Below, piece by piece: positions 196 to 31,249 of a stretch of DNA of 32,854 nt. Made by a program: the position numbers and the translations under genes. This stretch comes from Parcubacteria bacterium C7867-008 (GTDB taxonomy: Bacteria > Patescibacteriota > Minisyncoccia > Phycocordibacterales > Phycocordibacteraceae). Numbering within the stretch: the stretch's first letter is position 1; each line of letters starts with the position of its first letter. Below the pieces are notes generated by a model. It was not told the DNA's origin, searched no databases, and worked only from the letters and a program-made list of their open reading frames with translations. The DNA is taken from NCBI GenBank assembly GCA_001189215.1, contig LFCR01000005.1, positions 1 to 32,854 on the forward strand, written 5' to 3'.

Positions 196-1203
196 TTACG
201 AAAGCGATCGCACTTCTCGTTCAATTTGAATACCTGTTGCATTAAATATTTTCTCTGCAACATTGTTTGCAAGCGCATCAACGTCAACACACGTTGCACC
301 TGCATCTGCAACAAGTACCAATGGTTGGTTTTGAAATAAATATGCATGGCCCATACGAAATCCACGTAGATCAAGTACGTGATCAAGAATCCATGCGAGA
401 GGAATCTTTATACCAGTGCTTGTAGCAAAGCCAGGAAGTTCTGGATACTGTTGCTGTAGCTGGGTGTATTGATCAAGAACGATGGTGGGGTTCTTAAAGA
501 ACGAGCCTGCAGTACCGTACTCTGTAAGGTCTGGGAATTTGGCGCTGCGCACACGACGTACCGCCTCACCTATAGCATGAGGTGTATCAAGTACTTCCCC
601 GGCATCTATGAGACGGGAGAGGTCTGCATACTGTGTCCTAGGACTTCCACTACGCGTAACAGTTAACGCGACGCGCATAATGATACGTCCGGGGTTTTGC
701 TTGAATGTGCTATCTCTGTAGCCAAAAGCACATTCAGCACCAGTGAGTCGTTGGATCGTTTCTGTATCCGGGTCATAGCACTCAAGCCACGAAAAGCTAT
801 CTGCAAGTTCACTTCCATACGCGCCGATGTTTTGAACGGGTGCAGCTCCTACGGTTCCTGGAATACCTGCTAGATTTTCGATTCCCCACAACCCTTTATC
901 AGCACATGCTCGTACAAGCGCATCCCATGACGTTCCTGCATCAGCACATACTTCAACTCCCTCTGAAGTATCAGAGAATGCAATACTATTGTTCTGCATA
1001 AGAAGTAGGACGGCAGCAATGGATGCATCTGACGCAAGTATGTTACTTCCCTGTCCTATGGGATATAGCGGAAGGCGACATTCACGCGCATGCGCAAATG
1101 CCGCCTTCACTGATGCTACTGAGTTCCCTTGAGCGACGTAGCGTGCAGGACCACCGATACGGAATGTAGTTAGCGTGGAGAGCGGTACGTTCTCGCGCAT
1201 CAT
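196..1203 (-). CDS. murB: UDP-N-acetylenolpyruvoylglucosamine reductase
   Basis: 335 aa; MurB FAD-binding pattern (TTFRIGGPARYV, PIGQGSNILASD, GIENLAGIPGTVGAAPVQNIGAYGSEL, YRDSTFK, AGSFFKNP). Confidence 0.95.
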   Translation of the reverse strand: MMRENVPLSTLTTFRIGGPARYVAQGNSVASVKAAFAHARECRLPLYPIGQGSNILASDASIAAVLLLMQNNSIAFSDTSEGVEVCADAGTSWDALVRACADKGLWGIENLAGIPGTVGAAPVQNIGAYGSELADSFSWLECYDPDTETIQRLTGAECAFGYRDSTFKQNPGRIIMRVALTVTRSGSPRTQYADLSRLIDAGEVLDTPHAIGEAVRRVRSAKFPDLTEYGTAGSFFKNPTIVLDQYTQLQQQYPELPGFATSTGIKIPLAWILDHVLDLRGFRMGHAYLFQNQPLVLVADAGATCVDVDALANNVAEKIFNATGIQIEREVRSLS

Positions 1204-13088: not shown

Positions 13089-13157
13089 ACGTACTTATTT
13101 CTTATTGTATCTTTGCTGTCTACCTATGTATAGGTATAGATATAATTGACAAAAATA

Positions 13158-13175: not shown

Positions 13176-13183
13176 GTATTTAA

Positions 13184-13798
13184 TTATCCAGCAGTAACAG
13201 GATACGGATGATACTCAAACATATCGGATGGATAAGTTTTTTTCATATAGTCACAAACATGAGGCCACTCCCAAATAAGTACCTTCTTCTTGCTGATACG
13301 TTCAAGAGTCTGCATTGCGTTGCGTGTGTCATCCGCATGATCAATGAAGAACATAAATACTGCACGGCAGTATGTTACATCCCACTGCTTTGTATGCTGC
13401 TCGAGCCAAGAGGCATTTGGAGATACGAGATCGAGTTGAAATACATCGAGACCACTTTCCTTTGCCTGCGCAACAAATTCTTCTGCAAGGTCTGCCCCTT
13501 GTATTGAGTAATAGGGTTTCAATTGCTCAACAAGTCTTCCATAGCCACATCCCGCCTCTAGAACTGTTTCGGGTGAATGACGATCGAGTGCAGCACGCAA
13601 TTCTTTAATTGTTGGGTGTTTATCAACGGCCGGAAGTTCTGCAATGCGTTTCTTGGTACCTAGGGTGTATTCCTTATCATCTACCCAATAGTGCTTATAT
13701 CCCGAGCGATGTCGTGGGAGTCGCTTATATGCGTATGCGCGAAACGGGGGGAGCTTGTATAGGAAGCTCAATATATGTAACCGGAGTTCAGCCTTCAT
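13184..13798 (-). CDS. class I SAM-dependent methyltransferase
   Basis: 204 aa; SPETVLEAGCGYGRLVEQLKPYYSIQGADLAEEFVAQAKESGLDVFQLDL. Confidence 0.85.
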   Translation of the reverse strand: MKAELRLHILSFLYKLPPFRAYAYKRLPRHRSGYKHYWVDDKEYTLGTKKRIAELPAVDKHPTIKELRAALDRHSPETVLEAGCGYGRLVEQLKPYYSIQGADLAEEFVAQAKESGLDVFQLDLVSPNASWLEQHTKQWDVTYCRAVFMFFIDHADDTRNAMQTLERISKKKVLIWEWPHVCDYMKKTYPSDMFEYHPYPVTAG

Positions 13799-13831
13799 GT
13801 GAGAGATTATAAATGCACGTGGCTGTTTTCC

Positions 13832-14530: not shown

Positions 14531-14535
14531 ACGAA

Positions 14536-15579
14536 TCAGTTATAACGTAAGAGTTCCGTAGCTGCACGTATACACGCTTGCACCGGAACATTGCCAAATG
14601 GTTTAAGTCTGCCTTCACGATGCGCATCTAAATACGCAAGATCGTCATGTGCCTCCTCATCTTCTTGGAGACGATATAAGACACGCGCCGCTGGATGATA
14701 AAACGGGAGCCAGTTGGCCGTGCCTTTGTGCGCAATAGCAAGTACAGGAACTTTAAGGAAACAAGCCAGGTGAGTGATACCGGTGTCCACGCCAATAAAT
14801 AACTTTGAACCACCAATAAGTGCACTGAGTTGCTTACCGTTCATCCCACACGCAGCGATACAACGCTCTGGTGCAGAGCTTTTCGTTATAAGTGTATTGA
14901 TCCATTCCTTTTCTGATGGAGATCCTGAAATAACAAATGTTAGTTCTTTATTGTGCGCCAAGAGAGCATTTAAGAATTCAAGTGCGGCATCGGGTTCAAA
15001 AGAACGTTTCTCGGATGAACCACGCGGATGGATAAACACATACTGCTTACCCTCTAGACCTAGAGTACAGACTATTTCAGTATCTGGTGTGATCTGTAAT
15101 GTGGGAGTTTGTTGCATATTCTCCTCTATCCCAAGTGCCACTGCAACTGAACGAAGAGTGTTCAAGAACGGGACATTTGTGTCGTATACAAGAGTTTTGG
15201 TATACAACTTCTTACTAAGTGAATCATCATCCTCAAATCCAATGAGGCAACTCCCTGGCATGCGCGTAAGAAGCCATGCGGTCCATTTAACCTGCCTTGG
15301 TACTCGTCCGGGTGTTGGTTGAAGTATGGCTAGTCGACCTGGCTGAATAAATTGTATGAGCGTAAAGATAGAAAATATCTTTGAACGAGCAACTTGAACC
15401 ACTCTAAGGAATGGGTACGAGCCAATAAAACCTTTCAAGAAACCTCTATTGCGTGGAATAAGTATGGTTATGTTCGGTGCAACACCACTCTTATGCAAGT
15501 GCTCAGCAAAGTAGACAGCCATTAGAAAATCTCCAATGGATCCATTCTGAAATAGAATTACTTCCTTGTATCGCTTCAT
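14536..15579 (-). CDS. glycosyltransferase family 9 / heptosyltransferase-like
   Basis: 347 aa; QNGSIGDFLMAVYFAEHL, FIHPRGSSEKRSF, LFIGVDTGITHLACFLKVPVLAIAH. Confidence 0.88.
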   Translation of the reverse strand: MKRYKEVILFQNGSIGDFLMAVYFAEHLHKSGVAPNITILIPRNRGFLKGFIGSYPFLRVVQVARSKIFSIFTLIQFIQPGRLAILQPTPGRVPRQVKWTAWLLTRMPGSCLIGFEDDDSLSKKLYTKTLVYDTNVPFLNTLRSVAVALGIEENMQQTPTLQITPDTEIVCTLGLEGKQYVFIHPRGSSEKRSFEPDAALEFLNALLAHNKELTFVISGSPSEKEWINTLITKSSAPERCIAACGMNGKQLSALIGGSKLFIGVDTGITHLACFLKVPVLAIAHKGTANWLPFYHPAARVLYRLQEDEEAHDDLAYLDAHREGRLKPFGNVPVQACIRAATELLRYN

Positions 15580-16595
15580 ATCGTTTTTACCAGGCGATCC
15601 ATAAGAATCTCTAACCCTTCAGCCTTCGCAACTGCTTGCATGTGCGTACGTTGAGCATCTTGATCGTCAGCAGCTAATAGTCGAGAGAGTCTGAATGCAA
15701 GATCCGCTGCATCAGAGAAATAATATTGATCTCCGGCGCGCTCTTTAAAATCTTTGCTTCGTGCAAGCACCAAGCATCCACTTGCTGCTGCTTCGAATAA
15801 TGTCTTATCAAACATACCGCTCGGTGAACAGTTAACAAAAATACTGTGTCTATGAAACATCACCGGTACTTCTGTGTTTGGGACACCTGCCATAAACATA
15901 ACTGATCGATCTGGAAATTGACGCTGCACTCGCTGCTGCAACGTTGCATAGAATGATTCGTACGCAGGAAGTGGTGAGCCAATGAAGGTAGCGGTAAATG
16001 ATGTACCCTTCTTCTTAAGAATCTCAAGCGCATCAATTAATATCTCTGGGTGTTTGGACGGTGCCATGCGCGCAAGAAATAGTATGGACTCTCGCATGCG
16101 GCCCTCAAATATGGGGCTTGAGAACCGTTCTAAATCTACACCCACAGGCATAAGAACTGTTTTCTTGTATTTAGCCGTATATGAATCTTTCGAAGTGCAG
16201 AATACATTCTTACAGAACAACACTGCCAAATCTGTAAGCAACGAACCTGCATAGTGATTCCTCCAAAGGTATGCCGGCTTGTGTAGTAACTTCCATACCC
16301 ATCCAGCAACAAGGAGGTACTCCTGGTTCATGTGTATGAGCACACGGTCGTACTCATATCGCAGACTCAATGTCAGGATCAGAAAACGTAGCGCATACAC
16401 AAACGAAGGAGCTCTACCCTTCTCTTTACCAAGAGAGTGCACACGAACGTTCGCCGGTAGCGTGTGCCTACCCTCCTTTAAACAGATAACGGTAAGTTGA
16501 TCTGTACGTTTTGCTAGGCCTTCCACCCAACCGTGGTACACGCTGAGGGTTGGATCATCGAGATCCAATGCTTGTGTCACAAAGAGCAACTTCAT
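15576..16595 (-). CDS. glycosyltransferase family 4-like
   Basis: 339 aa; VLMPVGVDLERFSSP, ILFLARMAPSKHPEILIDAL, FEAAASGCLVLARS. Confidence 0.88.
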   Translation of the reverse strand: MKLLFVTQALDLDDPTLSVYHGWVEGLAKRTDQLTVICLKEGRHTLPANVRVHSLGKEKGRAPSFVYALRFLILTLSLRYEYDRVLIHMNQEYLLVAGWVWKLLHKPAYLWRNHYAGSLLTDLAVLFCKNVFCTSKDSYTAKYKKTVLMPVGVDLERFSSPIFEGRMRESILFLARMAPSKHPEILIDALEILKKKGTSFTATFIGSPLPAYESFYATLQQRVQRQFPDRSVMFMAGVPNTEVPVMFHRHSIFVNCSPSGMFDKTLFEAAASGCLVLARSKDFKERAGDQYYFSDAADLAFRLSRLLAADDQDAQRTHMQAVAKAEGLEILMDRLVKTI

Positions 16596-17731
16596 ACTGC
16601 AAGACGTGTTATGTCCGCAATAATATCTGCTGGTGTTGAACGTGCAGAAGCAAGATGTGCGAGTACTGCAGCCTCAGCTTGCATAGAGTATTCACTTCTC
16701 ATACGTGAGTCCTCAATCATGTGACGAATATTGTGCAGCAGTTGATTTGCGTCACCAGGAGGTGCTGCAAGTACCGAATCATTGCCTTTCAATACCTCCC
16801 CAACAATTCCAACATCTGAACTTATGATTGGCACCCGTGCGAGTGCAGCTTCAATAAGTGTGATGCTGTACCCCTCATACGCGCTCGCCTGTATGTAGCA
16901 CTGCGCACTGCGCATCAAACCACGGACATCTGTACGCCATCCAAGGAATCGAACACGATTCTCAATGTGCAGTTCTTTAGCGAGCCGTTCAAGTCGTGGA
17001 CGTTCGCTTCCCTCACCTGCGATCACGAGACCTGCAGAAGGATATGAATCTTTGACCCATGCGAGTGCATAGAGAATATCCTCAATACGTTTCTCTGGCT
17101 CAAGACGACTTGCCGTGAACAGCGTAAAGGGGTATACGGGTTCTGGAAATGGAACAGGCTGCACAGCTTCGGGTGTTACTTGTATAGGCAGTACTGATAC
17201 TGATTCCATATCTGATCCATATCGAGCGATCAAAGAATCCTTGATACGCTGAGACACCACCCGTACACCGTGTGCTTTTGGAAGTACGCGGTCTGCAATG
17301 CTCTGACGTATGCGGTTTAGAAGCGGCAGCCGAACCTGCACACTTCTACTCATACCGGTTCGAGTAAACCAAGGTGAAAACACATCTGTATGGAGCTGTA
17401 CGTGGAGTTTGGTATTTGTACCTTGTATGACCTTTAATGCAGCCCATCCATATTCAAAAGGATCCTGTGCTGATACCACTGCAATATTTGCTGTACGCAC
17501 CAATGCTCGTGCACGAGATTTAATAGCGAAGATTACGCTGATCTTATTACCAGTAACACCATGTAGGATGAGCGGACCTTCAGTGATTTCTTGCTGCTTC
17601 TTTGCGCGAGAAAGGATATGTAATACTCCGCCGGTCTTTGCTACTTCTTCCGCATATGCACGCATACGGCTCCGTACAGCAGTACCTTCCTCAAATATTC
17701 CTGGGTCATTTGATACGAAAAGTATGTTCAT
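16592..17731 (-). CDS. glycosyltransferase family 4-like
   Basis: 379 aa; FTLFTASRLEPEKRIEDILYALAWV, VIAGEGSERPRLERLAKELHIENRVRFLGW, EGYSITLIEAALARVPIISSDVGIVGEVL. Confidence 0.93.
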   Translation of the reverse strand: MNILFVSNDPGIFEEGTAVRSRMRAYAEEVAKTGGVLHILSRAKKQQEITEGPLILHGVTGNKISVIFAIKSRARALVRTANIAVVSAQDPFEYGWAALKVIQGTNTKLHVQLHTDVFSPWFTRTGMSRSVQVRLPLLNRIRQSIADRVLPKAHGVRVVSQRIKDSLIARYGSDMESVSVLPIQVTPEAVQPVPFPEPVYPFTLFTASRLEPEKRIEDILYALAWVKDSYPSAGLVIAGEGSERPRLERLAKELHIENRVRFLGWRTDVRGLMRSAQCYIQASAYEGYSITLIEAALARVPIISSDVGIVGEVLKGNDSVLAAPPGDANQLLHNIRHMIEDSRMRSEYSMQAEAAVLAHLASARSTPADIIADITRLAV

Positions 17732-18804
17732 ACGCGTGTAAGTATGTCTGCTGTACCGGCAAGCATAGCATCTAGGGTAAATCGTTCTTGGACAGTAGTA
17801 GTACCTTCAGAAAGCTGTTTTGCAAAGCTTGCATCAATAAGTACTCTGATGATCGCTTCTGCGAGTGCCTGAGTGTTTTTAGTTGGCACAATGATTCCGT
17901 TCTTTCCATCTATAACTAGCTCTGGATTGCCGCCTGCATCACTCGCTACGATTGGTTTACCAAGTAACAGTGCTTCTATCAGCACATGAGATAGTCCTTC
18001 GTACTCTGAATTAAGTACAAACATATCTGCCGCCTGCATGTATGAAAGTGTTTCTGCATGTGGAAGTGAGCCGGTGAACTGAACCACACCAGGAGGCGCA
18101 TATCCCTCAAGCTCTTTACGTTCTGGACCATCTCCAATAATTGTTAGAGTTGCATCTGGAACACTCGTGCGAACAATACTCATTGCGTCAATAAGACCTT
18201 TCATTCCCTTCCAAGGAACAAGGCGCGCAACAGAAACAATGGTGTGGGGAGCAAGCTTTCGTGACGGTATCTCTTCATCGATAGATAGGGCGTTATACAC
18301 CACATGAATCTTTTCTACAGGAATACCCCACGTAGTTACAATCCGTTTTAGGTATTCACTTGGAACAATAATCGTACGTGCACTATGAGCAACGAAACAT
18401 TGTGCTGCTCGCATTGCAGCAACGAAAAGTGGGACATTCTTTGTGCGAACAAATGTATCGAGATTCTGAGTTACTCCAAAACGTTGCACACCCTGCTCCC
18501 ATGCGAAGTCTCCTACGATCTTCACTACAAGTGGCTTATTCAAAAACCATGCAGCAAATGCCGTTGGTACTCCCACTGACGCAGGATCCAGTGCCAGGAT
18601 GACATCTGCTTTCTTACCTGTCTTTAGAACTTTAAAGAAGTACGAAATGTGTCGCATCACGCTTGGAAGATGCTTAACTTCGCTAAATTTCACTAATGAA
18701 ACCGAGATATCTCGCTCAGGTAGACCTAGTTCAAGAGTCCGAGCATAGGTAGCCGGACCTCCTGATTCAGGTGGATATAGGGGGGTGGCTATACAGAGCC
18801 GCAT
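17728..18804 (-). CDS. glycosyltransferase family 4-like
   Basis: 358 aa; MRLCIATPLYPPESGGPATYA, TIVSVARLVPWKGMKGLIDAM, EYEGLSHVLIEALLLGKPIVASDAGGNPELV. Confidence 0.93.
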   Translation of the reverse strand: MRLCIATPLYPPESGGPATYARTLELGLPERDISVSLVKFSEVKHLPSVMRHISYFFKVLKTGKKADVILALDPASVGVPTAFAAWFLNKPLVVKIVGDFAWEQGVQRFGVTQNLDTFVRTKNVPLFVAAMRAAQCFVAHSARTIIVPSEYLKRIVTTWGIPVEKIHVVYNALSIDEEIPSRKLAPHTIVSVARLVPWKGMKGLIDAMSIVRTSVPDATLTIIGDGPERKELEGYAPPGVVQFTGSLPHAETLSYMQAADMFVLNSEYEGLSHVLIEALLLGKPIVASDAGGNPELVIDGKNGIIVPTKNTQALAEAIIRVLIDASFAKQLSEGTTTVQERFTLDAMLAGTADILTRV

Positions 18805-18875
18805 ATAGGAATTGTACCAGCCCCACCCGAAGGAGGTTTCATGGGGATTTATAGCGCGTGGTACATTGTGGCTAC

Positions 18876-19427
18876 ATGAAAATCGTCCTTGCGACGCCTC
18901 TGTATCCTCCTGACGTAGCCGTATCAGCTACTTATGCAAAAGAGCTGTTTGTACGGCTTGCTGGAGCACACCCAGAACACACATTCACGATTGTGACCTA
19001 TACTGCGCTTCCCGAAACCATTCAGAGAGTACGGATTGTTTCAGTGAATAAGGAACTGCCCCTCCCGCTCAGACTCCTTGCCTGTACAGCCACTCTTCTA
19101 AAAGAAACTCGTGGTGCAGACCTGCTCATTATTCATAATGGTGCATCCATGGAACTTCCTGGTGGAATTGCGTCTCTGTTTTCACGAATACGAGTTGCGT
19201 TTCAAATTACAGACACCTCCGCTCATGAACATGCGCAACGTAGTAAGGTTTTTGGAATGATTGAACGATTTGTTTCAAAACGTGCGCAACAAATACGTAT
19301 TCAATTACCGACACAGCGCCCTGAGATACTTCCCTTGCAGGCTTCACCTGAGACTGAACTATCTGCCTATGAAGAATCGTGGAAACGACATGTACTAGAT
19401 TTAGACTCAATCATCTTCCATGGCTAA
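18876..19427 (+). CDS. truncated glycosyltransferase-like protein (N-terminal Rossmann domain only)
   Basis: ATG at 18876 (ORF may also start GTG 18858); MKIVLATPLYPPDVAVSATYAKELFVRLAG resembles the N-terminus of 17728-18804; no C-terminal GT domain. Confidence 0.75.
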   Translation: MKIVLATPLYPPDVAVSATYAKELFVRLAGAHPEHTFTIVTYTALPETIQRVRIVSVNKELPLPLRLLACTATLLKETRGADLLIIHNGASMELPGGIASLFSRIRVAFQITDTSAHEHAQRSKVFGMIERFVSKRAQQIRIQLPTQRPEILPLQASPETELSAYEESWKRHVLDLDSIIFHG

Positions 19428-20520
19428 CAACGAGAAAACAGAATGGGATGCATATATAACGGAAGAGCGTACTCATATTGAACCGTTACTTGCTGAACTT
19501 GGATACACTCTTGAAGAAGATCAGCCACATCTTTCGGGTGAGCGATATCTAATGCAAGCGGTAACAACAACTAGCGGAAGAAAACTTATTCTTATAGGCG
19601 TAGATACGGACGGAACTCGCGTAGTGATCAAGGCTACCCGAGATCCACGCGGCATGGAAGAACTCCTACATGAGCGTTCATGTAGACAGACACTTGAAAC
19701 TATCGATTTCGCCTACGATGTATTTCACACCCCTAAGGAATTAGTTTGGGTGAAAAGGAATGGATATCTAATTGTTATCCATGCGTTTATTGAACAGGAC
19801 TCAACATTTATTTCGCGACCAATTACCGAACAATTCTCTCTTGCCCTTTCAGCGTTTAAAGCTCAGGAGAGTGCTCGTGCAACCACCTACGCGCACATCC
19901 GTCGTGTACGGAATACATTCGGCAGCATGGATGCTACTGGGTATCTCAATACATTTGAAGGGTTCATTAGAAATATAAATACTCAGGAGTCTTCAAGTGA
20001 ATTAGCTAGCTTGTTGGACCAAGCGAAGAACTTACTCACCGAGAACAAAGACCGCATTCAGCAATACGGAGGGTTCCTAACGCACACCGATTTCGTCCCG
20101 CACAATTTCCGAGTTGTTGGTTCAGATATCTATCTTCTAGATACTGCTTCACTTCGATTCGGAAATAAATACGAGGGTTGGGCACGTTTCATAAATTTTA
20201 TGATGCTCTATAACCCTCCACTTGTTGAAGCATTCGTGCAATATGTCCGTGATAACCGTTCCCCAGAAGAATCAGAAGCTTTAAGGCTAATGCGTATTTA
20301 TCGCTTGGGAGAAATACTCTGTTACTACAGTGGCTGGGTTGAACGCGTCGATGAAAACCTCCTTGAGCTTACTCATGCACGTATTACCTTCTGGACTGAA
20401 GCACTCAATGCAGTATTAAAGAATGAATCACTTTCATCAGTCGCTCTGGACACATACCGCTCAAGGCGTGATGAGCTACGTAGTGAAGATGAGAAGCGTA
20501 GACAGGAGAATCTACACTAG
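19420..20520 (+). CDS. aminoglycoside-phosphotransferase (APH)/kinase-fold-like protein
   Basis: 366 aa; VVIKATRDPRGMEELLHE (K...E), GGFLTHTDFVPHNFRVVGSDIYLLDTASLRFG (HxDxxxxN ... D); 8-nt overlap with upstream ORF. Confidence 0.75.
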   Translation: MANNEKTEWDAYITEERTHIEPLLAELGYTLEEDQPHLSGERYLMQAVTTTSGRKLILIGVDTDGTRVVIKATRDPRGMEELLHERSCRQTLETIDFAYDVFHTPKELVWVKRNGYLIVIHAFIEQDSTFISRPITEQFSLALSAFKAQESARATTYAHIRRVRNTFGSMDATGYLNTFEGFIRNINTQESSSELASLLDQAKNLLTENKDRIQQYGGFLTHTDFVPHNFRVVGSDIYLLDTASLRFGNKYEGWARFINFMMLYNPPLVEAFVQYVRDNRSPEESEALRLMRIYRLGEILCYYSGWVERVDENLLELTHARITFWTEALNAVLKNESLSSVALDTYRSRRDELRSEDEKRRQENLH

Positions 20521-21075
20521 TTACGTGAGTGCATTCATTTTCTGAACAAGCGCTTCGTATTCATCTACCAGTGGGTGCTGCCAGGTCTCTTTGAGCATAG
20601 CGAGCATAATGTCCTCAAACCATAGTTTCTTTTCACGGCCTGCGTTAAAGAGTTTCCATAGATCAGTACCTAATCGATCATGTGCACGTATCAGACTTTC
20701 TGCATTATGGATCTTGTCTGCGGTGGCAACCGCTTTCGCATCTTCTGATCCAATACGAACCGTTTCAACATACGCGCGCTTCTTATCCTCCCAGGTCAAA
20801 CCTTCTTGATTGGTCACGCTTGCAACAATGGTTGCTACCTCATCACCCAATTCCTCACGAATCTGATCAATAGTGTATTCAGTATCTTCGACGAGATCGT
20901 GTGTTAAACCTGCTGCAATCACCGTTTCTGAAAAACCGTGCTGTGCCAGTAGGATTGCCACCATTACCGGGTGAACAATATACGGAGAATTATCGTCTTT
21001 ACGTACCTGTATTGCGTGACCATCTACAGCCATACGTGTTGCTCTATCAAGTAGAGAGGATCCTTCAGTATTCAT
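20521..21075 (-). CDS. HD-domain protein, RelA/SpoT-hydrolase-like (small alarmone hydrolase type)
   Basis: LLDRATRMAVDGHAIQVRKDDNSPYIVHPVMVAILLAQHG, THDLVEDTEYT, ATADKIHNAESL; ORF extends to 21111 but ATG 21075 preferred because a terminator hairpin abuts the upstream start. Confidence 0.85.
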   Translation of the reverse strand: MNTEGSSLLDRATRMAVDGHAIQVRKDDNSPYIVHPVMVAILLAQHGFSETVIAAGLTHDLVEDTEYTIDQIREELGDEVATIVASVTNQEGLTWEDKKRAYVETVRIGSEDAKAVATADKIHNAESLIRAHDRLGTDLWKLFNAGREKKLWFEDIMLAMLKETWQHPLVDEYEALVQKMNALT

Positions 21076-21118
21076 ACAAAAAGTATGCCCTTTCAAATAC
21101 AGCATGTCCATAAAGGCA

Positions 21119-21142
21119 AAGGCGCAGCTGGGGCTGCGCCTT
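21119..21142 (-). terminator. GC-rich hairpin downstream of 21161-21625
   Basis: aaggcgcagc-tggg-gctgcgcctt, 10-bp perfect stem, T-rich minus-strand tail. Confidence 0.8.
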
Positions 21143-21160
21143 CATAGGGCCTTGTTGGTC

Positions 21161-21625
21161 CTATTGTCTGTAGTACGCACTCAAGACGGTCCCAGAATCG
21201 GGGAAGATTGCCAGTCTCGCATCGAGATCATGGGCGGGATCCCAGTCACTGGCGCCCTCCGCGCTACCGTGCTTGATCGTCGAGAACACGGTCTCGCTCC
21301 CCACAAATACGTTGTGCGGATGTAGTGCAGAGACTACGAAACTGCATGGCGCTTCGTGGAGCTTGAATTGCAGGTCACCCTCGATGAGTTCAGCGAGGAC
21401 GACCCAGCCCACTTGGACTGCGTAGACCTCGATAATACCCGAGTGATGACTGTGGCTATTTTGCCAGCCACCGGCGCCCTCCGACAGTGTGTCGGTGATG
21501 CTCACCGACAACCCAGACTCTTCATGACGAAGTCCGGCTCGACGTTCACCGTTCGGCATGGTCTTGAGCCTGAGGGTGATGTGATCGTACGGGGGATCTA
21601 GCTTAGCGCGAACGTCTTTGGCCAT
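21161..21625 (-). CDS. orphan cupin-like protein
   Basis: 154 aa; HSHHSGIIEVYAVQVGWVVLAELIEGDLQFKLHEAPCSFVVSALHPHNVFVGSETVFSTIKHG; SD gggagg upstream of ATG; GC-rich relative to neighbours. Confidence 0.75.
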   Translation of the reverse strand: MAKDVRAKLDPPYDHITLRLKTMPNGERRAGLRHEESGLSVSITDTLSEGAGGWQNSHSHHSGIIEVYAVQVGWVVLAELIEGDLQFKLHEAPCSFVVSALHPHNVFVGSETVFSTIKHGSAEGASDWDPAHDLDARLAIFPDSGTVLSAYYRQ

Positions 21626-21674
21626 GTGGCCCTCCCATTTAGAAGATCATTGAGCGGTAGTGCTCTCATTAATT

Positions 21675-21702
21675 ATTATACTATATAAAATTATATAAGC
21701 AA
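21675..21702 (-). promoter_or_regulatory. sigma70-like promoter for 21161-21625
   Basis: minus strand TTGCTT-16 nt-TATAAT. Confidence 0.65.
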
Positions 21703-22878
21703 CTATTGTAGCGTCGGGTTGAATATACGTTCTTGCATCTGCTTTGCAACGAGGTCCCAGTCGTAGTTCTCAAGAACCATAACACGCGCATTCTTAGTTA
21801 CTTGTTTCACCTTCTCTGGATGCGCCAGTATGTCTTTCACTGCTTCTGCAATTTGTTCAGGAGAATCTTTTTCGACTACCCACGCTGTTGGTGTTTTGTC
21901 TGGAGTATATTTCTCATCAAAGACGAACTCAGCAAGACCCCCCTCTCGTGTGGCGACAACCGGCAAACGTGAAGCCATTGCAGACAGGAATGCGTTACCC
22001 AATCCTTCTGAACGTGATGGGCCCACAAAAATATCGGATGCCTTTCTATACGCTGTTACTTCACTACGATCTACGGGCCCAATGAATATAACTCGCTCAT
22101 TGAGATTTAATTCAGTGGCAAGTGTTTTAAGTGCAGCGTCATCTGGTCCACCACCCACGATGACTAATTTTACGTGTTCAGGAAGAGACGTGAGGGCGCA
22201 AATTGTATCTTCGTACCCTTTCTGATGTACCAACCGCGCAGTATTAACGAGCCAGATATCTCCTTCTTTCTTTCCAATCTTTTGTTGGAGTGTGATGATC
22301 TCTTGTTCTGAGACAGACTCATGGAGATCTTTTGGGTTGGCACCGTTGTGGATGAGCTCAATACGTCCCGTATATCCACGTTTCGGTGGCCAGGTACCTA
22401 GGTATGAAGAAATAACTTGTATCACTGACGCAGAACGAATACCTGCGTCGATAAGTGGTGTCAAAGGTTTAATGAAAGTTCGTTCGAAAACCTTTTCATA
22501 GGGATCACCATCCTGGAACGTAATGATGTGCGGTACTCGTACACCAAGAAACTTTGCCAACATGGTGGGCATGGTCATATACGTCATCATTGCCCACATA
22601 CCATTAAACTCGAGTCGTCTGTGCAATGAAGCAGCTTTGAGTGCAGCCAGTGGTATGAATAGTGCTTTAGATAGGAATGCTCCACCAAGTCCAACTCGGT
22701 ATATTTGTGTATTTCCTATCTTCTCAGTGCGAGGAGCTTTTGGTTCAAATAAAAGGGTGATGAGGTGAAACTCAACATCGCTAGGATCAATACGATCGGT
22801 GATTTCTTTTATGGCTGCTTCAGCCCCTGATACAAAGCTCGGGTAGTATGCAAGAGAAAATATGAGTACGCGTTTCAT
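21703..22878 (-). CDS. glycosyltransferase family 4-like
   Basis: 391 aa; LVNTARLVHQKGYEDTICALTSL, VIVGGGPDDAALKTLATELNLNERVIFIGPV, SEGLGNAFLSAMASRLPVVATREGGLAEFV. Confidence 0.93.
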   Translation of the reverse strand: MKRVLIFSLAYYPSFVSGAEAAIKEITDRIDPSDVEFHLITLLFEPKAPRTEKIGNTQIYRVGLGGAFLSKALFIPLAALKAASLHRRLEFNGMWAMMTYMTMPTMLAKFLGVRVPHIITFQDGDPYEKVFERTFIKPLTPLIDAGIRSASVIQVISSYLGTWPPKRGYTGRIELIHNGANPKDLHESVSEQEIITLQQKIGKKEGDIWLVNTARLVHQKGYEDTICALTSLPEHVKLVIVGGGPDDAALKTLATELNLNERVIFIGPVDRSEVTAYRKASDIFVGPSRSEGLGNAFLSAMASRLPVVATREGGLAEFVFDEKYTPDKTPTAWVVEKDSPEQIAEAVKDILAHPEKVKQVTKNARVMVLENYDWDLVAKQMQERIFNPTLQ

Positions 22879-22879
22879 A

Positions 22880-23755
22880 CTATTGGGATTGTTTTACTGA
22901 TTCGATATAGTCCACGAGTGTGTGTTCCTGTTTCCATCCAAGTGCCTCGATCTTTGAGGTATCGTCTGAACTTGATGAACGAGATGATTTAGTTTGTTCA
23001 TGCATCTCAATAGGTCCCCCAAACATCTCCGCCACCTCACGTATTGAGTGAGTCTCTTTGGCACTTATGTTGAAACCATCTCCTTCCCCTTTCTCTCCTG
23101 CAAGGATTATTCCTTCCACCGTATCAAGTACGTGGGTGAATGCTCGGGTCTGTGTACCGGGTGCATTCACTTTATGAGGAACTCCATTGAGTACATTCTG
23201 TCTAAATGTTTCGATGAGTGTTCCGTATACTTCACGACTACGCTCACGTGGGCCGTATACGTTATAGAAATAAACGATGGCATGTGGGAGTTGATACCAG
23301 GAACCGTAATTAGTTACGAGACTAACGTTTGATGCTTTGGCCCAGGTGTAAGGAGAAAGATCCTTTCCTTCTGTGAGACCATCCGTTGCATGGGTAGAAG
23401 TGGACTTTGTTGAAGACGCCGCATACACGAGCTTGCTACCGCGCGCACGACAAAACTCAAGCACAGCCTGAGTCCCAACCGTATTTAGATCCCACACCAA
23501 TGCAGGCTCTTCAAGACTCTTGTTTACTCGCGCATATTCACCAAGATGGTAGACGATGGCTGGCGTCTCTGGAATGAGAGTTTCTATGTCTTTGGTATGC
23601 CCTTCCCGATATTCAACTCCTTCTACGTGATTCTCACGAGACCCGGCGAAATAATTGTCTAGCGAAATAACCTGGTTACCATCAGCAACCAAGCGCTCAC
23701 ACAGATGGGAGCCAACGAATCCGGCACCTCCGGTTACAAGTAAAAGCTTAGACAT
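22880..23755 (-). CDS. NAD-dependent epimerase/dehydratase (extended SDR)
   Basis: MSKLLLVTGGAGFVGSHLCERLVADGNQVISLDNYFAG; start at 23755 preferred over 23797 because the extension enters a terminator hairpin. Confidence 0.92.
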   Translation of the reverse strand: MSKLLLVTGGAGFVGSHLCERLVADGNQVISLDNYFAGSRENHVEGVEYREGHTKDIETLIPETPAIVYHLGEYARVNKSLEEPALVWDLNTVGTQAVLEFCRARGSKLVYAASSTKSTSTHATDGLTEGKDLSPYTWAKASNVSLVTNYGSWYQLPHAIVYFYNVYGPRERSREVYGTLIETFRQNVLNGVPHKVNAPGTQTRAFTHVLDTVEGIILAGEKGEGDGFNISAKETHSIREVAEMFGGPIEMHEQTKSSRSSSSDDTSKIEALGWKQEHTLVDYIESVKQSQ

Positions 23756-23780
23756 AGGGTATGGGAGAAGTATAGCAAGC

Positions 23781-23817
23781 GGCCCGTCCTCCCGCATTTC
23801 GTGCGAGAGGACGGGCC
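23781..23817 (-). terminator. GC-rich hairpin downstream of the VirD4-like gene
   Basis: ggcccgtcctc ... gaggacgggcc, 11-bp perfect arms plus inner CGCA/TGCG. Confidence 0.7.
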
Positions 23818-23900
23818 AACTATGCTCGAATCATGAAAATCTTTGTTAGCTGCTTATATCAATCATTCGCTACTTTGATACCACTCCTCTAGCCCAAAGG

Positions 23901-25742
23901 TTACCGATCTTTAAAAAGATCTCGTAGAGTTTGCTCCGGTACTTCGTATGGAGACTGTGACGCTACTTCAGCAATTGGTTTCCTTTTTTCAACTGGTTCA
24001 TCACTATCGCGTTCTGGCATTGGTGGTTTAGGACGAGGCTTTGGCATAGGTGTTGGTTCTGCCTGCTCCTTCTTCAAGACATCAGCAAGTGCACCCTTGA
24101 GTGATCCTGATGGTTGTTCGGGTTTCGCTTTCGTTCGTTCGTTACTTGCGGTCTCCGCCATACCTCGAAGTATTGCTTTGAGATCTTCCGTTGATTTAGG
24201 TGCAGGCATTTGTTGTTGCGGACGATCCTGACGTGGTGGTCTGGAGTCTGAAGAATGATTATCATCACGACGTGGTCGATCATCTTGGCTGCGGGTAGGA
24301 CGATCTGAAGATGGTCGTGGACGATCATCGGTACGTGGACGGTCCTCACGAGGTCGATCATTTGAAGGACGTGGAGGATATGCATTCTGTCCTCCTGCAG
24401 GCTTTGCATAGGAACGTTTTGCAGGAGGTTCAGGTGGTCCATTTTCTCCTTCTGTTGAAGCGAGTTCTGCAAAGATTGCCTCTTCAATAGCCGCACGGTG
24501 GTTACCAAACTGGGCTCGAGAGGCTGCAATCACTTCCTTTTTAAGTGATACTGGTGGTGGCTCAATAGATGGAATCGATACTGCAGAAAAGGGCCGTGAA
24601 CCTACTCCATTGATCATGAGAGAAAGATATAACTGGAACTGACCGAGATTAACCAGATCTTCTTTCATAAATTCAGGACTGAATACCGTCTCAAGCACTT
24701 CAGCATCGAATGGTCCAACACGGAACGCAACCGTAGTACCCACGTTACCGAACACTGCAGCTCTCACTTGTTCTTCCATCTGCTCCACATACTGATGTGC
24801 AATGACAAGATTCAAATTATATTTACGTGCCTCAGAGAGAATTTCTGCAAACGTCTCATTAGCAAAGTTTTGGAACTCGTCCACATAGAAATAGAAAGGA
24901 ACACTATTCTTAAGTGCTTCCGGATCAAGCTCTGCACGACTCATGGCACCGAGGAAGATGCGTGTGGTAAGCATAGAACCAAGGAGACGCATGTTGGTAT
25001 CACCCACCAATCCTTTGGAAAGATTGATGAGAAGAATCTTCTTGCTGTCCATCAGTTCACGAATATCAAAAGAAGACTTCTCTTGGCCAATGATGTTACG
25101 AATCAACGGGTTGCTGGTGAACTGACCAATCTTGTTCTGAATTGCTGGTGTTGCCTCCTGGGTATATCGGTCACCGTAATTAGCAAATTCCTTCGTCCAG
25201 AAATCTTTCACCACAGGATCCTTGATGTTATCGATCACCTTCTTACGATATGCCTTATCGGTATACATGCGGTTCACACCAAGGAGCGTTGCACCTGGGT
25301 ACTCAAGAAGTGCGAGGAGTGTGTTGGTGAGAATGTACTCCATACGAGCACTCCAGGCGTCCTGCCAAATCTTCTTGAACGTTGCCATGAGGCCAGATAC
25401 TACGAGGTGGCGTTTGTCGTATCCAACGTCCTCCATGATATTGAACGCGATAGGTTGCTCCATATCGAATGGCGCAAAATACACCACATCCTTCATGCGA
25501 TGCTCTGGAATGTATTCAAGAAGCTTCTCTACCGCACTACCGTGTGGGTCGATGAAAGCCATACCCTCACCATTGCGAATATCTTGAATCGCCATGTTCT
25601 CAAGCAGAGTCGACTTACCCATACCCGTCTTACCGATCACATACATGTGTCGGTTACGGTCTTTGGCTTTAAGCCCAAATGGTACGCGTTTGCCACGCGA
25701 GTCTGTCGCGGCGAAATACGTTACGCGATCCTGATTGTCCAT
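23901..25742 (-). CDS. VirD4/TraG/HerA-like P-loop ATPase with disordered Arg/Pro/Asp-rich C-terminal tail
   Basis: MYVIGKTGMGKSTLLENMAIQDIRNGEGMAFIDPHG (Walker A), FYFYVDEFQNFANETFAEILSEARKYNLNLVIAHQY (Walker B/TraM-recognition-like); ATG 25742 preferred. Confidence 0.9.
   Translation of the reverse strand: MDNQDRVTYFAATDSRGKRVPFGLKAKDRNRHMYVIGKTGMGKSTLLENMAIQDIRNGEGMAFIDPHGSAVEKLLEYIPEHRMKDVVYFAPFDMEQPIAFNIMEDVGYDKRHLVVSGLMATFKKIWQDAWSARMEYILTNTLLALLEYPGATLLGVNRMYTDKAYRKKVIDNIKDPVVKDFWTKEFANYGDRYTQEATPAIQNKIGQFTSNPLIRNIIGQEKSSFDIRELMDSKKILLINLSKGLVGDTNMRLLGSMLTTRIFLGAMSRAELDPEALKNSVPFYFYVDEFQNFANETFAEILSEARKYNLNLVIAHQYVEQMEEQVRAAVFGNVGTTVAFRVGPFDAEVLETVFSPEFMKEDLVNLGQFQLYLSLMINGVGSRPFSAVSIPSIEPPPVSLKKEVIAASRAQFGNHRAAIEEAIFAELASTEGENGPPEPPAKRSYAKPAGGQNAYPPRPSNDRPREDRPRTDDRPRPSSDRPTRSQDDRPRRDDNHSSDSRPPRQDRPQQQMPAPKSTEDLKAILRGMAETASNERTKAKPEQPSGSLKGALADVLKKEQAEPTPMPKPRPKPPMPERDSDEPVEKRKPIAEVASQSPYEVPEQTLRDLFKDR
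24210..24385 (-). repeat. low-complexity DRPR/RPSDD coding repeats
   Basis: RPSNDRPREDRPRTDDRPRPSSDRPTRSQDDRPRRDDNHSSDSRPPRQDRPQQQ. Confidence 0.8.
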
Positions 25743-27401: not shown

Positions 27402-28085
27402 TCAAGGTGCAATAATCACGACAAATTCTCCTCGAACTTCTTTCTGGTGGGTAGCGAAGTATTCCTTCACTTCTTCGGCAGATCCACGAACCACTGATTC
27501 AAACAGTTTGGTTAGTTCACGAAGTACCACAACAGTTCGTTCCCCACCCAATACAGCCGTTAGCTCATCAAGTGCCTTCTCGATACGGTGCGTTGATTCA
27601 TAGAAAATGATGGTTCTGTCGCTCTCTGCCACCTCTTTCATTAACGTCTGTCGTCCTTTTTTGTGTGGGAGGAAACCAAGGAATACGAACTGGTCTGTGG
27701 GGACTCCAGCAATAGAGAGAGCGGCAGTTACTGCAGATGGACCCGGGATGGCTTCAATGCGAACATCATCACCGAGCTTTGCTCGGACCTCAGCCACAAG
27801 TGCGGTACCGGGGTCTGATATACCAGGGGTGCCAGCATCAGTAACCAGAGCGATATGTTTCCCTTCCCCGAGCATTGTAAGGATACGGGTAGCAGCGAGA
27901 CGACCACTCTGTGCGTGATACACCAGAAGCGGCTTACTTATCTCGTAGCGTGTGAGGAGCTTTGCGGTCACACGAGTGTCCTCACAAGCAATGGCATCCG
28001 CCTGTTTGAGCGTATCGAGAGCACGTAGGGTGATATCCCCTAAATTTCCTATGGGAGTTGCGACGACGGAAAGCGTGCCATTCAT
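27402..28085 (-). CDS. rsmI: 16S rRNA (cytidine(1402)-2'-O)-methyltransferase
   Basis: 227 aa; LSVVATPIGNLGDITLRALDTLKQADAIACEDTRVTAKLL, ALVTDAGTPGISDPG, IPGPSAVTAALSIAGVPTDQFVFLGFLP. Confidence 0.97.
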   Translation of the reverse strand: MNGTLSVVATPIGNLGDITLRALDTLKQADAIACEDTRVTAKLLTRYEISKPLLVYHAQSGRLAATRILTMLGEGKHIALVTDAGTPGISDPGTALVAEVRAKLGDDVRIEAIPGPSAVTAALSIAGVPTDQFVFLGFLPHKKGRQTLMKEVAESDRTIIFYESTHRIEKALDELTAVLGGERTVVVLRELTKLFESVVRGSAEEVKEYFATHQKEVRGEFVVIIAP

Positions 28086-28176: not shown

Positions 28177-29067
28177 ATGAACGCACTTGCGCCACTCATG
28201 GCTGCACAAGAGCCTTTACAGGCAAAAGTGGCCTATGATGGGGTGCGCGTTACTGGCGTATGCATCCCACCAAGCCTTGAAGATCTAGCCTACAACGGCC
28301 CGACACACTTCGTGAACGGTAACCCAGACTATGTGGGACGGAGGACGGAGGAACTTAGGGAACACGGTGTGACCACTGCTTTGGCACTGAACGTGACCAA
28401 ATCAACCACACGCATCCTGAACCCCGAACTTCTAACCACTAGCGTGTTGCTGAGTTACGGAATCGAGCTTCGAGCGAATCCATCAGAAGAGGCGGACCTT
28501 CTTCCCATGGACCCCGCTGCCAACACCACGTTCTACATGCGGACAGGTGGTTGCGGCGCACTCATCATGATTGCCGATGGAGTATGTCTGGTGGGACACT
28601 TGTCCCGCTGGAACTGCTTTGATCACGAACTCATCAACAGAAATATTAAGAGCCGTGACCATCAGGGCCTGATACATGCGGGGGTCGCATACTTCGATCA
28701 GCTTGGTATTGATCGTTCGAAGATACAGGTGTACCTCTTCTTCCCGATCAGTGCTGAGTCCTTCTCGCACAGCGCAAACACTAAGGATAGGTCGGCCAGG
28801 CGTTTTGCATTGAAGTTTCGGAAACATATCTATTCGTTGGGATACGGCGAACGGGTGTTGACCCGTAAGAAGGGTAACTTCAGCTTTGAGAAGTATGTCT
28901 CGGAAACCTGCAAGAAACTGGGTCTTCGGCCATCAAAGTGTGTCTGCACACTCCCGAATGAAGGGGAATTTGCAGTTACACGGCACAGTGACCCGCGACT
29001 GGCTAATTCCCGCAACACTGTCCTGATTACCATTAGCTACACACCGAAAAGAGCCCGCAAGGGTTAA
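28177..29067 (+). CDS. orphan protein, possibly distant laccase-domain (PgeF/YfiH) fold
   Basis: 296 aa; SD ctgggggt; weak resemblance of overall order (ADGVCLVGHLSRWNCFDHELI, YLFFPISAESFSHS, FAVTRHSDPRLANSRNTVLITI) to multicopper-polyphenol-oxidase-like proteins; fold call uncertain. Confidence 0.6.
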   Translation: MNALAPLMAAQEPLQAKVAYDGVRVTGVCIPPSLEDLAYNGPTHFVNGNPDYVGRRTEELREHGVTTALALNVTKSTTRILNPELLTTSVLLSYGIELRANPSEEADLLPMDPAANTTFYMRTGGCGALIMIADGVCLVGHLSRWNCFDHELINRNIKSRDHQGLIHAGVAYFDQLGIDRSKIQVYLFFPISAESFSHSANTKDRSARRFALKFRKHIYSLGYGERVLTRKKGNFSFEKYVSETCKKLGLRPSKCVCTLPNEGEFAVTRHSDPRLANSRNTVLITISYTPKRARKG

Positions 29068-29115: not shown

Positions 29116-30543
29116 ATGGAGGAACCTCGTCATGCACACGTTATTGGTCTTTGCGGGGTCGGAATGAGTGGTGTTGCCTTACTACTCAAAGAATCCGGCT
29201 GGAGCGTAACTGGCTCAGATGCTGAGTGTTACGGACCTCCTCGTGAGATCTTAAAGCGTGGTGGTCTAGATTCTGTCCTCACTCTTTCATACAGCCCTTC
29301 CAACATTCCAGATCATGTTGATCTGTTCATGATCGGTCGCAACGCAAAACTCTCTCCAACTGAGAATCCAGAAGTACAAGCGGCACATGAGACCGGCGTA
29401 AAGATACAATCATTCCCTGAAGTACTCGGGGACCTTACAAGAGAGCGTGCAAATGTAGTAGTTGCAGGTAGTTACGGAAAGTCCACCACCACAAGCCTTA
29501 TCGCACATATTCTTCGTCATGCCGGTGTTGATGCAGGATATTTCATTGGTGCAGAACCAGTACCTACAGATGCACTCCCCCTTCCCGCTAAACTAGGTAG
29601 CGCAGAAAACTTTGTACTCGAGGGTGATGAGTATCCAAGTGCACATGATGATGCACGTGCGAAGTTTCTTCACTTACATCCCAAGGATCTCGTACTCACC
29701 TCGGTCGTACATGACCACGTGAATGTGTATCCAACATTCGAGAGCTATCAGGCTCCTTTCCAAGAACTCCTCTCCCTCGTACCAGAAGACGGAATTGTGG
29801 TGACATGTGCAGATGAAGCAGGTGCTCGAGAAATGGCAGAAGCGTCGGGAAAGAAGGTTGTTCTCTACGGTCTCAATGATGGTATCTATCGTGCTACAGA
29901 AATTAGCTATGGAGAACGAACAACATTCTCACTCCTCAAGGATGAACAGGTTCTTGTTCAGATGGAGACTGGTCTACTAGGTCGTCACAACGTCGAGGAT
30001 ATAGTTGCAGCAAGTGCGTATGTACTTGCTCGTAACCTTGTTAGCCCCGAAGCTCTTTCTGCGGCAATTGCTGCATTCCCTGGTGTACGACGTCGTTTAG
30101 ATAACATTGCACCAACTTCAACGGTTCCTGTCTTTGAAGGATTCGGGTCATCCTTTGAGAAAGCTCGCGCTGCAATAGACGCTATTCGTTTACACTTCCC
30201 CACTAGACAGCTTGTAATAATGTTTGAGCCACACACTTTTGGATGGAGGAACCGTGCAAACCTTCCTTGGTATGACTCCGTATTTGAGGGTGCCAGTGTA
30301 GTATTCCTTGCAGCTCCCGCGCTTCAGGGTGCAAACACCCATGATCAGCTTTCCTATGATGAGATTGCAGAGCGTATTCAGGATACTGGCATTCGTGTAG
30401 AGCCATATGAAGATGATTCTGTTGGAACAGTGGTCGGTAAGGTAAGTGATTCAGATGTCGTACTTCTTCTCACCTCAGGAGACTTCGAAGGTACTCTGGA
30501 TTCACTCGCAAAGATGATCGCACTGCGATTCCCTACCAACTAG
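29116..30543 (+). CDS. Mur ligase family (UDP-N-acetylmuramate ligase, Mpl/MurC-like)
   Basis: 475 aa; HVIGLCGVGMSGVALLLKESGWSVTGSDAECYGPP, GSYGKSTTTSLIAHIL (P-loop), LLGRHNVEDIVAASA, FPGVRRRLDN, FEPHTFGWRNR. Confidence 0.92.
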   Translation: MEEPRHAHVIGLCGVGMSGVALLLKESGWSVTGSDAECYGPPREILKRGGLDSVLTLSYSPSNIPDHVDLFMIGRNAKLSPTENPEVQAAHETGVKIQSFPEVLGDLTRERANVVVAGSYGKSTTTSLIAHILRHAGVDAGYFIGAEPVPTDALPLPAKLGSAENFVLEGDEYPSAHDDARAKFLHLHPKDLVLTSVVHDHVNVYPTFESYQAPFQELLSLVPEDGIVVTCADEAGAREMAEASGKKVVLYGLNDGIYRATEISYGERTTFSLLKDEQVLVQMETGLLGRHNVEDIVAASAYVLARNLVSPEALSAAIAAFPGVRRRLDNIAPTSTVPVFEGFGSSFEKARAAIDAIRLHFPTRQLVIMFEPHTFGWRNRANLPWYDSVFEGASVVFLAAPALQGANTHDQLSYDEIAERIQDTGIRVEPYEDDSVGTVVGKVSDSDVVLLLTSGDFEGTLDSLAKMIALRFPTN

Positions 30544-30544
30544 C

Positions 30545-31249
30545 ATGCGTCTGCGTTTCGCTGAATTTGGGCACGAATACGATTCATACTCTTTCGGATA
30601 TACGGTTCATGGTGAGCGTGAGGAAAGCGACGCGTTACAGGATATATACGCACAAGGACTGCTTCCGTATTCAGCGGTTGGGATTGATCCCAACTTGTTC
30701 TATATGAGCAGAAGTGTGCGAGTAGCCGTAGCAGCGCATGAACCATCAAGTGAGAATCGTCGTATCCTGCGTAAATTTGATACTCAGTTCACACAGACCT
30801 ACCTAGAAGGTAACGAGCTCCGAACATCTGAATCATTCCGTAGTCTCATGCTCACCTATTTCGCAGAACGGCACGGTGCACAGGTGATGCCCGCTGAGCG
30901 ACTTGAACAGATACTTACTCGGGGCATTCCCCTTCGTGCTGCAGAGTATCGTCATAGTGATACTCCTATTGCATACGTACTTGAGGTTGCTGAGGGCCCG
31001 TTCCTCCACTATTGGTATTCCTGCTATGATCTCTCCCATGCAAACGGATCACTGGGCATGTGGTTGATGTTGGATGCTATACGTCGTGCACAACAAGAAC
31101 AGCGAGACTATGTGTATCTCGGTACTGCGTATGGAGAGAAAGGCCGCTACAAAACAAACATTGCTCCGTTAGAGCATTGGAATGGAAATGAGTGGGACGC
31201 TGATGCGCGCCGTTTGTCTGAGTTGATGAAAAAGGATTCGGGCAGCTAG
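30545..31249 (+). CDS. arginyl-tRNA-protein transferase (ATE/Bpt)-like GNAT-fold protein
   Basis: 234 aa; RRILRKFDTQF, LTYFAERHG, FLHYWYSCYDLSHANGSLGMWLMLDAIRRAQQEQRDYVYLGTAYGEKGRYKTNIAPLEHWNGNEW; 1 nt after the Mur ligase stop. Confidence 0.7.
   Translation: MRLRFAEFGHEYDSYSFGYTVHGEREESDALQDIYAQGLLPYSAVGIDPNLFYMSRSVRVAVAAHEPSSENRRILRKFDTQFTQTYLEGNELRTSESFRSLMLTYFAERHGAQVMPAERLEQILTRGIPLRAAEYRHSDTPIAYVLEVAEGPFLHYWYSCYDLSHANGSLGMWLMLDAIRRAQQEQRDYVYLGTAYGEKGRYKTNIAPLEHWNGNEWDADARRLSELMKKDSGS

Follow-up and report, generated by a model that had tools for sequence, protein, structure and literature searches.

The window, meaning the whole stretch of 32,854 nucleotides that was analysed, is contig C4 of a genome of 808 kb with a completeness of 97%. 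Near its end, the gene for RsmI is followed by genes for a PgeF-like protein, an Mpl-type Mur ligase and an ATE-like protein. In an earlier note, the last two had been described as a Mur ligase and an ATE-like transferase in tight coupling, and both open reading frames were indeed found on the plus strand, with 1 nt between the stop of the first and the start of the second. The following features were identified:

196..1203, minus strand: MurB, in the same window (NF000755, 294 bits, cut-off 277)
27402..28085, minus strand: RsmI (tetrapyrrole methylase family, PF00590), the syntenic anchor
28177..29067, plus strand: divergent PgeF/YfiH-family protein (peptidoglycan editing hydrolase-like), upstream of Mpl and in the same direction
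29116..30543, plus strand: Mpl-type Mur ligase of 475 aa with Pfam Mur domains, predicted to join a preformed (di)peptide to UDP-MurNAc
29467..29487, plus strand: P-loop GSYGKST of the ligase, from the motif table
29620..29667, plus strand: Mpl signature EGDEYPSAHDDARAKF in the ligase (compared: Mpl EADEYDxAFFDKRSKF; MurC EADESDxSFL)
30545..31249, plus strand: ATE-like (SEN-type) aminoacyl-tRNA transferase homologue of 234 aa without the N-domain Cys cluster, PF04377 above cut-off
30647..30775, plus strand: N-domain stretch of the ATE-like protein, in which the Cys-cluster loop of ATE/Bpt is missing and which runs into the SSENRRILRK motif (from the comparison with the Cys-bearing Bpt of L045)
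31115..31198, plus strand: C-terminal GNAT core motif YLGTAYGEKGRYKTNIAPLEHWNGNEWD of the ATE-like protein, with residues invariant in 56 homologues

The region from 4669 to 24000 of the window is taken up by a large polysaccharide cluster, in which many glycosyltransferases, NDP-sugar enzymes and methyltransferases were recognised from the ORF translations. An ORF of 232 aa at 13832-14530 on the minus strand has a Trp-rich, repetitive C-terminal half (ARKWAW, GGWKWL, GAWKWL).

MurC and MurD, which start the cell-wall peptide, serve as antibiotic targets and are generally regarded as near-universal among bacteria with a wall. Only three Mur ligases were identified in the window's genome, namely MurE (290 bits, above cut-off), MurF (with MurF as the best model at a score below the cut-off) and the ligase of the window. 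The gene for MurF is preceded by a penicillin-binding-protein-like ORF, as read from the sequence. The precursor pathway is also represented at other steps, for example by MurB. The wall pathway is therefore present, but no MurC or MurD could be recognised in it.

The window ligase matches the Pfam domains Mur_ligase, Mur_ligase_M and Mur_ligase_C, with MurC and Mpl as the best curated models; neither TIGR01082 for MurC (220.8 bits, cut-off 335.1) nor TIGR01081 for Mpl (194.3 bits, cut-off 388.7) reached its cut-off. A BLAST comparison with E. coli references gave Mpl as the best match, with 163 bits versus 129 for MurC. In a maximum-likelihood tree of 55 ligases (supports written as pairs), E. 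coli Mpl, true Patescibacteria Mpl and all ATE-linked ligases including that of the window form one clade (99/94), and the window ligase lies outside the MurC clade (95/87) of E. coli, Paraburkholderia and Patescibacteria without the ATE-like gene. For Mpl, a unique Tyr and an (S/T)AFFDKRSK loop have been described (PMC3060825). This Tyr in DEY (Y173) is invariant in the ATE-linked ligases of the order, and the signature DEY...D..KF was identified in nearly all ATE-linked ligases with a readable motif, the corresponding motif of E. coli MurC being EADESD. The loop reads SAHDDARAK in the window, with the Tyr and D..KF kept and FF not. G118, G121 and K122 of the P-loop are invariant in 17 ATE-linked ligases. 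An assignment as MurC was rejected by BLAST, tree and DEY signature, although TIGR01082 outscores TIGR01081. By its sequence, the window ligase thus belongs to the Mpl clade; the earlier note had spoken of an "Mpl/MurC-type" ligase.

Known Mpl (murein peptide ligase, UDP-MurNAc:L-Ala-gamma-D-Glu-mDAP ligase) is a recycling enzyme which works beside MurC and MurD, and its members load a whole peptide on UDP-MurNAc in one step. The window ligase shares its clade and the DEY signature. However, the known enzyme prefers the tripeptide, whereas the window ligase is found without MurC and MurD, with MurE kept and with an altered FFDKRSK loop.

The ATE-like protein reached 31.8 bits with Pfam ATE_C (PF04377, cut-off 25), in agreement with the ATE/Bpt C-terminal architecture noticed earlier. 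It also matches Acetyltransf_6 (PF13480); these two were the sole matches up to an E of 10, the FemAB Pfam domain being absent. With the NCBIfam arginyltransferase equivalogs, it scored at most 55.1 bits, below the cut-offs of 170-358 (best model 267). No Cys is present in residues 1-80, where ATE/Bpt carries an N-terminal Cys cluster, and 49 of 56 homologues have 0-1 Cys in this region. The sole Cys of the window protein is located in "YSCYD", at about residue 162 and outside the N-domain, so that "cysteine-less" holds for the metal-binding cluster of the N-domain and not strictly for the protein. A Cys-bearing canonical Bpt from the same order (G100, L045) has YFFQPSCPDCSECVPVRVISDEFKPSKSQRRNLKKN versus LFYMSRSVRVAVAAHEPSSENRRILRK in the window, and in the full contrast FFQPSCPDCSECVPVRVISDEFKPSKSQRRNLKK versus FYMSRSVRVAVAAHEPSSENRRILRK. 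From this comparison, the metal-binding loop is gone and SQRR is changed to SENRR in the window protein, which has SSENRR at the PS+SQRR position of Bpt/ATE. The weak match of G100 was rejected as a third ATE-like subgroup, as it is this canonical Bpt. Invariant residues in the 56 homologues are R56, R59, S69, E70, N71 and R73 in the N-domain/SEN region and G193, Y196, Y202, K203, G214 and W217 in the C-terminal core. The closest named relatives are from Parcubacteria MAGs (L156, 77% identical).

The AlphaFold2 model of the ATE-like protein (pLDDT 95.6, pTM 0.91) was compared by Foldseek, which placed ATE1 chains first (8tzv, E 1.2e-10, TMq 0.68), followed by L/F transferase, FemX (weaker, TMq 0.43-0.53), alanyl-phosphatidylglycerol synthase and the aminoacyl-tRNA-dependent peptide synthases Sba18/Sbb17. 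All 50 fold matches listed are aminoacyl-tRNA-dependent transferases. In PDB sequence searches with the protein or its profile no relative was found, the relatives coming from the fold search only. The structural alignment to ATE1 and FemX, proposed in the earlier note as a check, thus gave an ATE1/aminoacyl-tRNA-transferase fold for the model, with ATE1 as the best and FemX as a weaker match. As Sba18/Sbb17 and alanyl-phosphatidylglycerol synthase show, non-protein molecules can be acylated by enzymes of this fold. A dependence on tRNA is predicted for the ATE-like protein from fold and homology.

For the PgeF-like protein, the AF2 model has a pLDDT of 85.9, and all 18 Foldseek matches with E<0.001 belong to the YfiH/YlmD family. 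YfiH has the triad D89-C107-H124 and cleaves UDP-MurNAc-mono- and dipeptides (PMC8844914). D107, C126 and H141 of the window protein are invariant in alignment A4 and line up with this triad. The window copy gave no match to Pfam PF02578, which was reached by three of five other family members tested, and members of the family were identified around Mpl-ATE in 13 other Patescibacteria loci. With PgeF/YfiH it therefore shares the fold and the Asp-Cys-His triad, but the window copy is divergent and tied to the Mpl-ATE locus, whereas the known one is tied to MurC errors.

In group A of the family (about 44% identity to the window protein), Mpl lies upstream of the ATE-like gene in 25 of 27 named loci; the remaining two are truncated by contig ends. 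Group B (22-30% identity) has the opposite order, MraY-ATE-Mpl, with the ligase close by. The pair is thus conserved in both gene orders, and the pairing is far beyond chance. A PLP enzyme often follows Mpl in group B, with an ATP-grasp protein before, and the PLP enzyme is a candidate for a D-amino-acid source. The group B locus L041:6021-12468 codes for a PLP enzyme resembling threonine synthase/serine racemase, an ATP-grasp protein and a weakly NlpC/P60-like protein; the latter two seem to be fused in some genomes. The operon of a Shapirobacterium (L216) has the order RsmH ... FtsI-MurE-ATE-Mpl-MurB-MurA-MurF-MraY, and ATE and Mpl are also paired in one Armatimonadota genome and in two Dojkabacteria, one of which has a PLP enzyme after Mpl. 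In the same-genus relative G129, MurC and MurD are located beside RsmI and the c7 ATPase, and in G061 and G003 they are likewise beside RsmI. Having either MurC-MurD or PgeF-like/Mpl/ATE beside RsmI looks like a swap at one position. In G097 (L032:8002-8451), the ATE-like gene was read from the sequence after an MltG/YceG-like fragment and not after Mpl. L168 is recorded as Alphaproteobacteria bacterium MAG01, probably in error; its Mpl-ATE locus is of the Patescibacteria type.

The distribution in the order was analysed in 148 genomes with the ATE-like family profile A1 and the MurD model at its cut-off; here as throughout, the evidence comes from genomes, mostly MAGs. The ATE-like gene was identified in 20 of the 148 genomes and MurD in 83, with MurD in 0/20 carriers versus 83/128 non-carriers. 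Fisher's test gave p=1e-8 for this exclusion, a value uncorrected for phylogeny which overstates independence because the genomes are related and the carriers are not phylogenetically independent. Both states occur within three families, namely f1 (the window genome versus G129 and G061), f15 (G097 versus G014) and f16 (G098 versus G015). By BLAST with E. coli references, Mpl, MurE and MurF were recovered with few gaps from those carriers of the order that were examined (only MurE was found in G097, and MurE was not found in G065), and none of them showed MurC or a canonical MurD. In the same test, MurC, MurD, MurE and MurF were identified in seven relatives (G003, G007, G014, G015, G018, G061 and G129), the MurF of G018 being seen in a separate search only and not in the BLAST set. 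The profile of the ATE-linked ligase scored high in 19 of 20 carriers; among the non-carriers it did so only in two, G122 and G138, whose paired-type Mpl subfamily without the ATE-like gene counts against a replacement. Some 45 genomes of the order reached the cut-off for neither ATE nor MurD, which means that MurD can also be lost in other ways; this too counts against a replacement. Glutamate racemase (MurI) was found in 20 of the 148 genomes; it is rare order-wide and not tied to ATE, no signal of co-occurrence with the ATE-like gene being seen in the order. This rarity bears on the source of D-Glu and counts against the proposed route. Two carriers, G067 and G133, keep a degenerate MurD-like ligase, which counts against a replacement. 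The MurD-like protein of two carriers of family f67 (432 aa; L041:4709-6004 and L036:4876-6171) has an odd P-loop, GVMGxCGK, and does not reach the Mur middle-domain model; it is possibly in decay or has taken on another role.

Outside Patescibacteria, the SEN-type family was identified in Bacteroidota, Verrucomicrobia, KSB1, Calditrichota, Chlorobiota and Acidobacteriota, including genomes of 3-7 Mb from bacteria which are probably free-living. The pattern seen in the order was met again in Dojkabacteria, Shapirobacteria, Armatimonadota, Bacteroidota, Acidobacteriota, Verrucomicrobia and KSB1. MurD was above cut-off in one of 47 carriers tested across phyla, Paraburkholderia solisilvae, where the ATE-like gene occurs together with the full MurC/D/E/F set and Mpl; this counts against a replacement. 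As a control, the class to which the Verrucomicrobia carrier G547 belongs was searched irrespective of ATE status, and MurD was present in 51 of 57 genomes. The Mur sets of the cross-phylum carriers are mostly Mpl and MurF, with or without MurE; MurC was found in Paraburkholderia only, and Mpl was not found in G538 and G540, both MAGs. In Flavobacteriaceae, the ATE-like gene lies beside an EF-G-like gene and not beside wall genes. In two Flavobacteriaceae carriers, all that is left of MurD is a C-terminal fragment of about 180 aa near MurE (L329:3061-3588, L328:1016-1564).

The Mpl-type ligase and the ATE-like protein appear, with good support, to stand in for MurC and MurD in many small Patescibacteria and in scattered free-living bacteria. 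The full explanation, that the ATE-like protein makes L-Ala-D-Glu and Mpl loads this dipeptide on UDP-MurNAc, so that MurC and MurD are bypassed, is regarded as fairly probable, the donor (Ala-tRNA), the acceptor (D-Glu), the tRNA dependence and the order of the steps being predicted. It is supported by the fold, the place of the ligase in the Mpl clade, the conserved pair, the mutual exclusion with MurC and MurD and the exchange beside RsmI, and it agrees with the operons, with the cleavage of UDP-MurNAc-dipeptides by YfiH and with the loop pattern of Mpl in genomes with and without normal MurE. In the first step, the ATE-like enzyme would move an amino acid, likeliest L-Ala from Ala-tRNA, to the alpha-amine of free D-Glu. 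ATE and Bpt acylate the amine of N-terminal Asp or Glu by this chemistry, and D-Glu is similar to the acidic N-termini recognised by ATE (PMC10115844). In the second, the Mpl-type ligase would use ATP to activate the lactyl carboxylate of UDP-MurNAc and would attach the dipeptide as a block. This has a precedent in Pseudomonas Mpl, with rates of 260 for the tripeptide, 1.4/min for L-Ala-D-Glu and 0.7/min for L-Ala, although the preference for the tripeptide (260 versus 1.4) counts against the replacement (PMC3060825). The retained MurE and MurF would then add residue 3 and D-Ala-D-Ala, and the PgeF/YfiH-like neighbour would probably hydrolyse wrong or truncated UDP-MurNAc-peptides. MurC and MurD add residues singly on the carrier, whereas here the dipeptide would be completed away from it and attached in one piece. 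That the ATE-like protein takes over the role of MurD directly was rejected for chemical reasons: aminoacyl-tRNA transferases acylate amines and therefore cannot extend the carboxylate of UDP-MurNAc-L-Ala as MurD does.

With the arginyl- and leucyl-tRNA-protein transferases ATE1 and Bpt, whose known acceptors are N-terminal Asp/Glu amines, the window protein shares the ATE_C domain and the fold; it differs in the lost Cys cluster, in SSENRR for PS+SQRR, in the linkage to cell-wall genes and in the MurD exclusion. The earlier suggestion of an aminoacyl-tRNA-dependent step in wall precursors rather than N-degron tagging is supported by the conserved pair, the fold, the neighbours MraY, MurE, Mpl and PgeF and the MurD exclusion, with the use of tRNA predicted from model and homology. 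Of its "synthesis or recycling", synthesis is retained and recycling is not, since an Mpl kind of ligase and the joint replacement of MurC and MurD point to synthesis of the stem dipeptide and not to recycling or a FemX/MurM-like branch. A literature search found no prior report of such a replacement; most subscription journals and bioRxiv were outside its scope, which makes this weak evidence. The protein families themselves are known, and the novelty would be the pathway, only if the proposed mechanism is right.

The cross-bridge transferases FemX/MurM also use aminoacyl-tRNA through a GNAT-type fold in peptidoglycan precursor synthesis, but FemX is a two-GNAT protein which acts on the side chain of the finished UDP-MurNAc-pentapeptide and replaces no Mur ligase. 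On this model, the paired Mpl could act as MurC and add L-Ala, an unrecognised ligase could add D-Glu and the ATE-like protein could acylate a side-chain amine of the precursor for a branch or cross-bridge. FemX is among the fold matches, the group B gene adjoins MraY, overexpressed E. coli Mpl complements a murC mutant and Pseudomonas Mpl uses L-Ala (PMC3060825). However, the MurD exclusion and the choice of Mpl rather than MurC as partner would be left unexplained, and among the group A loci no other conserved ligase for D-Glu was recognised; this explanation is regarded as unlikely.

The same replacement might instead work with other building blocks, such as a Gly- or Ser-charged tRNA, or an L-Glu/Asp-type acceptor with a later epimerisation, so that residue 1 or 2 of the stem would be unusual. 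The rarity of glutamate racemase and the PLP enzyme after Mpl in group B and in one Dojkabacterium would fit, and a peptide-epimerising route is described elsewhere (PMC5808125). However, the retention of MurE and MurF points to an ordinary dipeptide as the substrate, and MurI is rare throughout the order, with no tie to ATE; only a small chance is given to this variant.

Scavenging, in which Mpl attaches peptides salvaged from the wall of a host or prey and the ATE-like protein tags or repairs them, is regarded as very unlikely. Some MurD-less, ATE-less Patescibacteria (G008, G049, G056, G092 and G119; L121-L123, L125, L126) have a true Mpl, as expected of scavengers, and are possible wall-peptide scavengers; in G049, G056 and G119 it is near the RsmI gene. 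However, carriers of 3-7 Mb should not depend on scavenged wall peptides, and MurE and MurF are mostly kept in carriers. That the ATE-like protein is an ordinary N-degron type transferase incidentally placed beside Mpl would agree with its ATE_C homology and ATE1 fold and with its place in Flavobacteriaceae, but is regarded as very unlikely; the MurD exclusion across phyla and the operons led to its rejection as the main explanation, with Mpl in 25 of 27 named group A loci (two at contig ends) and both gene orders, the loss of Cys cluster and SQRR motif and the separate true Bpt in the order also against it.

If the replacement of MurC and MurD is true, the first peptide bond of the wall would be made from aminoacyl-tRNA, outside the Mur ladder, and a large part of the ATE family that is still uncharacterised would gain a function. 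A de novo role would be added to the recycling known so far for Mpl. The replacement would also explain why some Patescibacteria and some larger genomes seem unable to make peptidoglycan, and it predicts bacteria which are insensitive to MurC/MurD inhibitors.

A variant without MurE was seen among carriers outside Patescibacteria. In Verrucomicrobia, KSB1 and Calditrichota, the ATE-like gene is often located after a GARS-like ATP-grasp protein and/or alanine racemase, and the former may act as a peptide ligase in place of MurE. The dcw clusters of G545, G538 and G541 have no murE between ftsI and murF, and that of G545 also has no murD between mraY and ftsW. At the murE position of G546 and G547, a protein was identified which resembles MurE little outside the C-terminal part; for that of G547, the Mur C-terminal Pfam domain was the sole match. 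The Mpl of Verrucomicrobia/KSB1 carriers without normal MurE keeps the canonical FFDK loop known from Mpl that uses the tripeptide, whereas the loop of MurE-keeping carriers is altered, with the exception of G549, which has a canonical Mpl plus MurE elsewhere. Mpl might thus load a tripeptide in the MurE-less variant. Whether a second, tRNA-dependent stem-peptide route exists in many phyla, in which a Cys-cluster-less ATE-like transferase would make the first peptide bond off the nucleotide carrier and Mpl would load the block, a dipeptide if MurE is kept and perhaps a tripeptide via the adjoining ATP-grasp ligase in Verrucomicrobia, KSB1 and Calditrichota, is judged to be evenly balanced. The trio of GARS-like ATP-grasp protein, alanine racemase and ATE-like protein is conserved in Verrucomicrobia and other groups, as at L224:3458-6804 and at the similar loci L196, L226, L229 and L233. 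Clusters of dcw genes with murE deleted or replaced were seen in L330, L331, L332, L333 and L334.
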